A DNA stretch of 54,087 nt from Eubacteriaceae bacterium. GTDB lineage: Bacteria; Bacillota; Clostridia; Eubacteriales; Eubacteriaceae. The translations under genes were made by a program, and so were the position numbers. Of the stretch, positions 16,796 to 38,241 are shown in pieces (within the stretch, counting starts at the first letter, position 1; each line of letters starts with the position of its first letter). Location: the NCBI GenBank assembly GCA_012522805.1, contig JAAYJS010000008.1, positions 1 through 54,087 of the forward strand, written 5' to 3'. The notes under the pieces were generated by a model. It searched no databases. It was given only the letters and a program-made list of their open reading frames with translations, and was not told the DNA's origin.

Positions 16796-16805
16796 GAGGT
16801 TGCCC

Positions 16806-34312: not shown

Positions 34313-35509
34313 TTACAAGTTTTTAATGATCTCTACGGTATCTCGTGCAATCATAATCTCTTCATTTGTAGGAATGACCATAACGGTAATTTTGGATTCC
34401 GGAGAAGAAACGATGAGGCTCTTACCCCTCGTCTGATTTAATTCTTCATCCAATTGAATACCCAAGCTGGCCAATTTATCGCATATTGCTTGTCGCGTCG
34501 AGCCAGAGTTTTCTCCGACACCGGCGGTAAAGACGATGCCGTCAATTTTACCTAATGCAACAAGATAGGATGCTATAGTTTTGGCTACACGGTAATGATA
34601 AACATCCAGTGCCAATTGTGCTCTTTCATTGCCTTCATCGGCCGCTTCATCTAAATCTCTAAAGTCTTCACTAACACCGGATACTCCTAAAACACCGGAT
34701 TCCGAATTTAAAATCTTGTTAATTTCTTATACTTTATAACCTTTGTTGTATAAAAAGGGATAGATGGATGGATCGATATCTCCACTTCTTGTGCCCATGG
34801 GTACACCTTCTAGTGGGGTTAATCCCATAGATGTATCGACACTTTTGCCGCCCTTCACTGCGCAAAGGCTGGCGCCATTGCCCAGATGACAAGTTATTAA
34901 ATTGAGGTCTTCGATTTTTTGAGCCATGAGATCTGCCGCAGATAACGCAACAAATTTATGAGAAGTACCGTGAAAACCGTACTTGCGAATCGCGTGTTTT
35001 TCATAAAGTTCATAGGGAATAGCATACATATGAGCTTCAGCAGGAATCGATTGGTGAAAAGCAGTGTCAAATACTGCAACATTCAACGAATCCGGTAAAA
35101 TCTTTTGGCAGGCTTGAATACCCATCAAGTTGACAGGATTGTGCAATGGTGCCAACTCAATATATTCTTCTATTTTAGAGCTTTCTGTTTCTTTAACCAG
35201 AACAGACTCTTTAAAATAATCGCCACCCATGGCCACTCTATGTCCTATGCCATCAATTTCTTCGTAACGTTTTACAACACCGCAATCCGGATCTATCAAA
35301 GCTTTGAAAATAATTGCCAATGCTGCTTCATGGTCCGGTAAGGGTTGGATAAATTCTACAGGCATTTTTCCGGTAGGCTTATGTGTGATTTTTGATTGCT
35401 TAGAGCCAATTCTTTCCGCTAATCCTTTTACCAACACACTCTCGTCTGTCATATTGATCATCTGATATTTGATGGTAGAACTACCGGCATTAATTACCAA
35501 AATCTTCAT
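34313..35509 (-). pseudogene. ackA: acetate kinase, interrupted by an in-frame TAA
   Basis: AckA converts acetyl-phosphate and ADP to acetate and ATP, working after Pta. Codons 1-260 carry VINAGSSTIKYQ, the YGFHGTSHKFV motif, HLGNGASLCAVK and the GTRSGDIDPSI segment. Codon 261 (34729-34727) is TAA. The same frame resumes with E-I-N-K-I-L then SGVLGVSGVSEDFRDLDEAA, FTAGVGENSGSTR and NEEIMIARDT to a natural end, giving the normal total of 398 residues. One base substitution would repair it. As read, the product lacks the last third. AAGGAG precedes the ATG. It may be a sequence error or a real nonsense mutation. Confidence 0.92.
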
Positions 35510-37116: not shown

Positions 37117-37317
37117 TTAATGTTTGTATTGCCGAGAATTGTCTCGCCTTGTAATTTGGAATTCTTCCCCTAAGTAAAAGAATAGGATGAATACACCCAA
37201 ACCGGTCAACCATAAAAATCCTGTTTTTATATCTTCAAAACCGGAGCATGCTAAAATTAAAAAAAATATAAATCCTAAATTGCCAACTACCTTCGTTAAG
37301 CGATTAAAAAGTAACAT
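37117..37317 (-). CDS. small two-helix membrane protein, unknown function (66 aa)
   Basis: 66 residues from the ATG at 37317, which has AAGGAG six bases before it; the upstream in-frame ATG at 37335 would put that ribosome binding site inside the gene and is less likely. Two hydrophobic helices (about residues 10-27 and 32-50) are followed by a charged tail (E-E-F-Q-I-T-R-R-D). I do not recognise a family. It is transcribed divergently from the S24-type repressor gene, from a good promoter whose start region carries the same 12-bp operator as the repressor promoter, so it is probably the regulator's target. Confidence 0.7.
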   Translation of the reverse strand: MLLFNRLTKVVGNLGFIFFLILACSGFEDIKTGFLWLTGLGVFILFFYLGEEFQITRRDNSRQYKH

Positions 37318-37353
37318 ATTCTTCTCCTTACTCATTATTTTGAATCTTCTTGT

Positions 37354-37362
37354 TGTTGCATA
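37354..37362. promoter_or_regulatory. third partial operator copy
   Basis: TGTTGCATA, the first nine bases of the 12-bp element found at the two divergent promoters, lying in the leader of the small membrane protein gene. Confidence 0.4.
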
Positions 37363-37399
37363 TCGAGTGCATTTACTGCAGTTGCTGATTGTTGTTACG

Positions 37400-37442
37400 T
37401 ATTATGCAACATCAGTGTACTATGTATTTTGTCACGTGTCAA
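37400..37442 (-). promoter_or_regulatory. promoter and operator of the small membrane protein gene
   Basis: On the minus strand TTGACA (37442-37437), 17 bp, TACACT (37419-37414), followed two bases later by the element TGTTGCATAATA (37411-37400) at the expected transcription start. Confidence 0.7.
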
Positions 37443-37465
37443 GTGATTTATCTGAATTCGCCCAA

Positions 37466-37483
37466 TATAATTGTTGCATAATA
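37466..37483 (+). promoter_or_regulatory. promoter -10 and operator of the repressor gene
   Basis: TATAAT (37466-37471) is followed immediately by TGTTGCATAATA (37472-37483), an exact inverted copy of the element at 37400-37411. The -35 is weak (GTGATT). The layout suggests autorepression. Confidence 0.65.
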
Positions 37484-37518
37484 AGAGAAATATGTTAAAC
37501 TGTATTTAGGTGATTAAA

Positions 37519-38148
37519 ATGACTATTCATAAAAGATTAAAAGATAAGCGACAAGAAAGTGGTATGACGCTCCAAGAGGTTGCCGACCTTGTTGGTGTCA
37601 GCAGACAAACCATCCAACGATACGAATCGGGAAATATAAAAAATATCCCATCAGAAAATGTTGAAAAACTAGCTGACATCTACCATACGACCCCACAACA
37701 GCTTTATAACTGGGAAGTACAAAAAGAAGTAGAGGTATCTATTCGCGATTTAATTCCTCTCGTTACCAAGCAATTACCTCTTTTAGGAGATATTGCCTGC
37801 GGAGAGCCCATTTTAGCCGATGAACATCACGGCGAATGGGTCGAAACTACCGAAAATATCAATGCAGATTTCTGTATTCGGTGTAAAGGCGACTCCATGG
37901 TAGGAGCTCGTATTTATGATGGTGATATCGTATTTATAAAAAAGCAAGCGGATGTAGAAAATGGCGAAATCGCAGCTGTTTTAATAGAAGATGAAGCAAC
38001 CTTAAAAAGAGTAAACAAAAACAATAAAGGTTTTATATTTTTAATGGCGGAAAATCCCGCCTATGCACCAATCGTTATAGATTTAAAAGAAAACGGTCGT
38101 ATTGTAAAAATTTTGGGAAAAGCGGTCGCCTTTCAAAGCGTTTTGTAA
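37519..38148 (+). CDS. XRE-family repressor with S24 (LexA/CI-like) self-cleavage domain
   Basis: 209 residues: an N-terminal XRE helix-turn-helix (MTLQEVADLVGVSRQTIQRYESG, residues about 14-36) and a C-terminal S24 peptidase domain with a candidate Cys-Gly cleavage site in DIACGEP, catalytic Ser in CKGDSMVGA and catalytic Lys in EATLKRV. Such proteins cut themselves when RecA filaments form on damaged DNA, releasing their targets. The fold is phage CI-like, but no phage genes are near; it may serve as the LexA-like SOS regulator or a local repressor. The start is ATG at 37519 behind TAGGTGAT; the track GTG at 37510 overlaps that site. Its 12-bp operators flank both divergent promoters. Confidence 0.88.
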   Translation: MTIHKRLKDKRQESGMTLQEVADLVGVSRQTIQRYESGNIKNIPSENVEKLADIYHTTPQQLYNWEVQKEVEVSIRDLIPLVTKQLPLLGDIACGEPILADEHHGEWVETTENINADFCIRCKGDSMVGARIYDGDIVFIKKQADVENGEIAAVLIEDEATLKRVNKNNKGFIFLMAENPAYAPIVIDLKENGRIVKILGKAVAFQSVL

Positions 38149-38207: not shown

Positions 38208-38241
38208 AAAAGAGGCCGGTACATTTGTACCGGCCTCTTTT
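38208..38241. terminator. bidirectional terminator after the repressor gene
   Basis: AAAAGAGGCCGGTACA (38208-38223) pairs with TGTACCGGCCTCTTTT (38226-38241). A-run and T-run flank it on both sides; it also serves the converging glmM operon. Confidence 0.9.

Follow-up and report, generated by a model that had tools for sequence, protein, structure and literature searches.

A phage CI-type repressor opposite a small membrane protein ORF: a candidate damage-relieved unit in a LexA-less member of the Eubacteriaceae

Introduction

What does a repressor of the self-cleaving type control when it stands opposite an ORF for a small membrane protein, among housekeeping genes, in a bacterium in which we find no LexA? 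The locus lies in a 54,087-nucleotide stretch of DNA from an Eubacteriaceae bacterium (the window), part of a genome assembly of 2.02 Mb that is 97.8% complete. A preliminary description of the window, made from its sequence alone, had seen in this locus two divergent genes under mirrored 12-bp operators, and had proposed that the small protein is a membrane effector induced by DNA damage. Here, we follow up this proposal computationally.

Results

A divergent pair among housekeeping genes

The whole unit occupies 1.1 kb and consists of the repressor gene and the divergent gene of the small ORF, with a 201-bp spacer between them:

37519-38148, plus strand: XRE-S24 repressor of phage CI type, 209 aa, best start ATG 37519
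38208-38241, plus strand: predicted intrinsic terminator downstream of the repressor
37117-37317, minus strand: small protein of 66 aa with two predicted membrane helices, start ATG 37317
37324-37329, minus strand: ribosome-binding site AAGGAG, 6 nt before ATG 37317

It is flanked by tmcAL on one side and by glmM-gatD-murT on the other (names from reading the sequences; the last is murT-like), a site among housekeeping genes and not in a defence island. No integrase or other phage gene is seen around it. The search for flanking att-like repeats gave nothing beyond a 10-bp direct repeat, A-rich and of low complexity. The earlier statement that no phage genes are near holds for these immediate flanks; the repressor itself is of the temperate-phage CI type. 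Elsewhere in the window, the acetate kinase gene (34313-35509) contains one in-frame TAA at 34727-34729, its frame being intact on both sides.

The repressor is of temperate-phage CI type and retains its cleavage residues

The repressor (212 aa if the alternative start GTG 37510 is used) has an HTH_3 domain (Pfam PF01381, 8e-15) followed by a Peptidase_S24 domain (PF00717, 2e-25). Its S24 half aligns with LexA structures, and the alignment places the bond C94-G95 and the dyad S126/K163 in register with the cleavage sites and catalytic residues of LexA and CI. The protein thus combines an A-G or C-G bond with a Ser/Lys dyad, as the RecA-dependent self-cleaving S24 class does, in agreement with the preliminary description. 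The single-sequence AlphaFold model was poor beyond the HTH (mean pLDDT 43) and was not used.

It is not a canonical LexA, which we define by the winged-helix LexA DNA-binding domain together with a TIGR00498 score above 110.95 bits: the repressor reaches 91.1 bits, through its S24 part only, and its N-terminus is XRE/HTH_3. Its kin are found among phages. It matches phrog_4 of PHROGs (1.3e-41) and 278 phage records, 153 of them over at least 80% of the length; this full-length similarity, together with the XRE HTH and S24 domains, characterizes the temperate-phage CI type. The closest relatives come from a prophage-like locus of another member of the family (L005, 48%) and from a viral contig (L065, 49%). 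In a tree, the repressor clusters with phage CIs in a group that is not resolved further, separate from the LexA clade and two further S24 clades, and it shares the C-G bond with L005, L065, the phages mv4 and Lugh and a faecal phage. The autocleavable residues noted earlier are therefore confirmed, but in a repressor of the temperate-phage CI type, as its relatives and the tree indicate, rather than in an independent LexA.

In these CI relatives the divergent gene typically encodes a Cro-like HTH protein. Here, instead of a Cro-like gene within a phage genome, we find the 66-aa membrane ORF, between tmcAL and glmM. The repressor gene appears to be under selection, being intact and of good codon usage where all other phage genes are gone.

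Operator-like sites cover both predicted transcription starts

The spacer and the leader of the small gene contain the following elements:

37466-37471, plus strand: predicted -10 of the repressor promoter, TATAAT (from the sequence)
37472-37490, plus strand: O_R, TGTTGCATAATAAGAGAAA, over the predicted start of the repressor transcript; includes the plus-strand 12-mer
37414-37442, minus strand: predicted small-gene promoter, TTGACA-17-TACACT (TTGACA at 37442-37437, TACACT at 37419-37414)
37393-37411, no strand assigned: O_L, imperfect 19-bp dyad TGTTACGTATTATGCAACA, over the predicted small-gene start; includes the minus-strand 12-mer
37350-37363, plus strand: third operator-like half-site, TTGTTGTTGCATAT, in the small-gene leader

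The 12-mer TGTTGCATAATA occurs exactly at 37400-37411 (minus strand) and 37472-37483 (plus strand), once per orientation and nowhere else in the window, as first described. Each copy begins 1-3 nt past a -10 element and so spans a predicted transcription start; the claim that it covers the starts of two divergent promoters is thereby borne out for the predicted starts. The perfect TTGACA of the small-gene promoter was also recovered, with its 17-nt spacer. For the repressor promoter, no good -35 was found by sequence.

How much weight can the pair of 12-mers bear? When the 201-bp spacer was simulated 5000 times with a first-order Markov model, a repeat of at least 12 bp arose 50 times (~1%), so that the mirrored pair alone is suggestive and not overwhelming. 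The case becomes stronger because the left copy is one arm of the 19-bp dyad O_L, with half-sites TGTTACGTA and TGTTGCATA, and because a third half-site exists: an exact TGTTGCATA at 37354, in the leader of the small gene. Apart from the operator half-sites, the 9-mer TGTTGCATA does not occur in the window. O_R has one perfect and one weak half-site (5/9), and the 14-mer at the third half-site recurs 39 bp away with 86% identity. Since the unit is seen in a single genome, the operator cannot be checked phylogenetically.

Beside the third half-site, at 37350-37360, lies the reverse complement of an 11-mer, TGCAACAACAA, that is also present upstream of an S24 gene of a presumably non-cleavable type (L116, upstream of 2476); this coincidence may be due to chance.

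LexA is absent from the genome, and the 12-mer is not a general SOS box

No protein of this 97.8% complete genome reaches the LexA cut-off. A weak LexA_DNA_bind match on contig C22 belongs to a 91-aa frame beside a FeoB-like gene and is not LexA. Across 40 genomes of the family, LexA above the cut-off is present in 21 of the 24 genomes of two genera and in none of the 16 genomes of the other seven, a single-contig genome rated 100% complete among them. LexA has apparently been lost lineage-wide across seven genera of the family, a loss of which we found no description in the literature.

Could the repressor then be the general LexA substitute of this organism, with TGTTGCATAATA as its SOS box? 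Two facts speak for this idea, the missing canonical LexA and the cleavable-type S24 architecture of the repressor. We scanned for a regulon by pattern searches and in targeted stretches of the genome. Exact copies of the 12-mer number 3 genome-wide, against 1 for the reversed control pattern, and the third copy sits within an ORF on contig C22; with one mismatch allowed, the whole genome holds 15 copies against 14 for the reversed pattern, i.e., no excess. Neither upstream of recA, which stands at 16800 of the window after a cinA-like gene, nor at the promoter of the Y-family polymerase gene did we find the 12-mer, even with 3 mismatches allowed.

Besides the studied repressor, the genome encodes two S24 proteins, on contigs C1 and C32. 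The C1 repressor, whose cleavage bond is A-G, is divergent from the Y-family polymerase gene (L115 976-2500; G000 contig C1 ~124.5-126.0 kb). The arrangement also occurs in the genomes G005, G008 and G015, and three of the LexA-less genera have such a unit. The repeats of its control region, AGCCATAAAAGA and GAGAAATAATGGT, each present twice, differ from the 12-mer. As the 12-mer is missing at recA and the polymerase gene faces a different S24 repressor, it is not the general SOS box that the preliminary description had asked about. In addition, no clear orthologue of the studied repressor is seen in the other LexA-less genera of the family. The role of general LexA substitute is thus largely refuted, and we regard it as very improbable.

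Some observations on these genes deserve mention in their own right. The Y-family polymerase gene has one in-frame TGA (L115 ~976-978) and is open on both sides of it, a nonsense change or an assembly error. In the C32 protein, the third S24 of the genome, the cleavage bond is lost and Arg replaces the catalytic Lys. This third S24 type (L116 1811-2476, L122, L123 and L126), with YDLP in place of the bond, is conserved in LexA-less genera and lies close to recA in one genus; judging from these residues, it is likely a non-cleavable S24 regulator.

The small membrane protein has a single recurrent, weak match, to part of rhomboid proteases

The 66-residue, two-helix membrane ORF described earlier was recovered from ATG 37317, and its AAGGAG-6-ATG arrangement has ideal spacing. 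AlphaFold predicts a two-helix hairpin (pLDDT 77). Codon usage is ambiguous and does not prove that the ORF is coding: its total codon score is below that of 99% of gene segments, and its synonymous-codon score is inside the gene range.

The preliminary description had staked its proposal on conservation of the small ORF, and here it did not hold: our searches of 60 relatives and of 391 class genomes found no orthologue of the small protein. The repressor/small-ORF pair is known from one genome and is absent from the other genera of the family among the genomes searched. Phages, plasmids and viral contigs yielded no homologue either, and Pfam, PHROGs, PADLOC and NCBIfam no convincing match.

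The only recurrent match, a weak one, is to the TM4-TM5 part of rhomboid proteases. In six genomes, the hits that fell in ORFs of ~190-210 aa all lay in one and the same region of a single rhomboid protease subfamily. A profile of these rhomboids, which were picked by their likeness to the 66-aa query, scores 27 bits with it, and none of 5000 segment-preserving shuffles exceeds 11.8; three rhomboids not picked by likeness give 14.5 against a shuffle maximum of 11.7, and hhalign assigns the relationship a probability of 49%. The alignment runs from the catalytic GASG, which is GNLG here, with the Ser replaced, to the catalytic His, where the ORF ends. A rhomboid protease requires a six-TM core with GxSG and His; since only TM4-TM5 aligns and the Ser is replaced, the small protein cannot be a protease. 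No remnants of a complete rhomboid gene were found in the frames around the ORF. Descent from a rhomboid fragment is possible on this sequence evidence, and the likeness means that the ORF may be no more than debris. The protein is not a division inhibitor of the YneA/SosA/DivS kind, as it has two helices, no LysM and no LexA alongside.

Discussion

A candidate mechanism

The explanation that we favour, with middling confidence, is that a co-opted temperate-phage CI-type repressor and the small membrane protein form an autoregulated divergent unit that is relieved by DNA damage. Starting from the operator-like sites, the two ORFs and the intact cleavage residues that are apparent in the sequence, we infer repressor binding, RecA-stimulated cleavage, induction by damage and translation of the small ORF. 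Repressor dimers on the strong dyad O_L (37393-37411) would silence the strong promoter of the small gene, and repressor on the weaker O_R would limit its own synthesis. Upon DNA damage, RecA filaments would prompt S126/K163 to cut the C94-G95 bond. Thereupon both promoters would open, and the two-helix membrane protein would be made until the repressor re-accumulates. The sequences also show the repressor to be kin to phage CIs and LexA to be missing. In this LexA-less lineage, S24 units number at least two, the studied one and a separate one that faces the Y-family polymerase gene.

A damage-induced effector is a plausible role for the small protein by analogy with FddR, YneA and SosA, and the most likely form of it would be a membrane brake on growth or division. 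In members of the order that keep LexA, a small TM+LysM-like protein is encoded divergently from lexA; by analogy, the position opposite the repressor would be a natural place for such a brake. A more specific version, in which a dead two-helix fragment derived from a rhomboid became the damage-induced effector under a captured phage repressor and replaced the lexA-yneA pair after LexA was lost, seems improbable to us.

Alternative explanations

The damage-relieved unit gains from the mirrored operator-like sites, from the intact cleavage residues of its repressor, unlike those of the C32 S24 protein, and from nearest relatives that are phage and prophage CIs, as well as from the intact repressor gene, the missing LexA, the polymerase unit apart from it and the FddR precedent. 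It loses from a small ORF that has no orthologue, a low total codon score, a likeness to rhomboids and a single host genome, and from a 12-mer pair that alone has a chance of ~1%. The missing orthologue and the low codon score suit its main rival, a prophage of which nothing but the CI gene with its operator region survives. These remains would either be retained, possibly for the immunity that they give against related phages, or simply not have been lost so far; the minus-strand ORF would be a frame arisen by chance or a decayed rhomboid fragment in the place of cro. That phage CIs typically stand opposite Cro-like genes, and that the sole recurrent match of the ORF is a rhomboid fragment without the catalytic Ser, would follow naturally from such an origin. 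A relic of this kind is harder to reconcile with an intact repressor gene and with surroundings of the 1.1-kb unit in which we saw neither an integrase nor other phage genes nor att-like repeats. The same goes for the signals of the small ORF: its AAGGAG-6-ATG is ideal, it has a TTGACA promoter, and the strongest dyad covers its predicted start. We consider it rather unlikely, though to be taken seriously.

The same pair might also act against phages: the S24 repressor would sense phage-caused damage and free a membrane-active, toxin-like protein that arrests the infected cell. What would fit such an exclusion module is that the repressor and the small membrane protein form a self-contained pair, that this pair comes from a phage and that it has a terminator of its own; XRE regulators of defence systems weakly match the HTH domain. 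However, the 66-aa protein matches no defence-system family, and the site lies among housekeeping genes and not in a defence island; we see little probability in this explanation.

Implications

If true, the damage-relieved unit would extend the idea that a lineage, once it loses LexA, builds a new damage response out of captured phage repressors in self-contained divergent units. That idea is so far based on Francisella, Streptococcaceae and Bacteroidetes, and the extension would concern a family in which seven genera have apparently lost LexA. Should the small protein be induced and active, a membrane checkpoint or growth brake would have re-evolved beside a new repressor; should it not be, the unit is a well-preserved fossil of prophage immunity. 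In our view, the family-wide LexA loss deserves no less interest than the unit.

Comparison with known systems

In the literature, we found no S24/small-membrane-protein unit beyond the comparisons with FddR, HdiR and lexA-yneA/sosA/divS. With the CI/Cro regions of Gram-positive phages (mv4, Geobacillus PK5.2, Faecalibacterium Lugh), the unit shares the repressor family, the C-G motif and divergent promoters, but it lacks Cro, integrase and any other phage gene.

In the lexA-yneA, lexA-sosA and lexA-divS pairs, a repressor of the self-cleaving type stands opposite the gene of a small membrane protein across a shared control region (PMC6851548), an arrangement that the studied unit resembles. 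Those pairs consist of a canonical winged-helix LexA and single-TM inhibitors, mostly with LysM, whereas here the repressor is XRE-type and the small protein has two predicted helices and no LysM.

HdiR of Lactococcus/Streptococcus is an XRE + S24 protein of LexA-less Gram-positives that clusters with phage repressors and regulates itself (PMC8565304). In outline, our repressor is alike: XRE + S24, kin to phage repressors, in a LexA-less Gram-positive. HdiR controls umuC (and, in S. thermophilus, cinA-recA), whereas recA and the Y-polymerase gene are not linked to the operator studied here.

FddR of Francisella is a co-opted phage repressor that regulates itself and a divergent gene of unknown function, and its paralogue faces dinB (PMC13148647). 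FddR belongs to a lambdoid-repressor clade and binds GTG-N11-CAC; the repressor studied here is of the CI type of Gram-positive phages, has a C-G bond and goes with a putative TGTTGCATA half-site. Throughout the genus Francisella the FddR pair is conserved; the studied pair has been seen in one genome, and a divergent 66-aa, two-helix membrane protein sets it apart from FddR units. Both cases nevertheless combine a LexA-less lineage with a co-opted phage S24 repressor whose cleavage residues are intact and whose own promoter carries an operator-like site, here palindromic, as judged from sequence, and located in the divergent promoter region. In both, the divergent gene is of unknown function, and a second S24 unit faces a Y-family polymerase.
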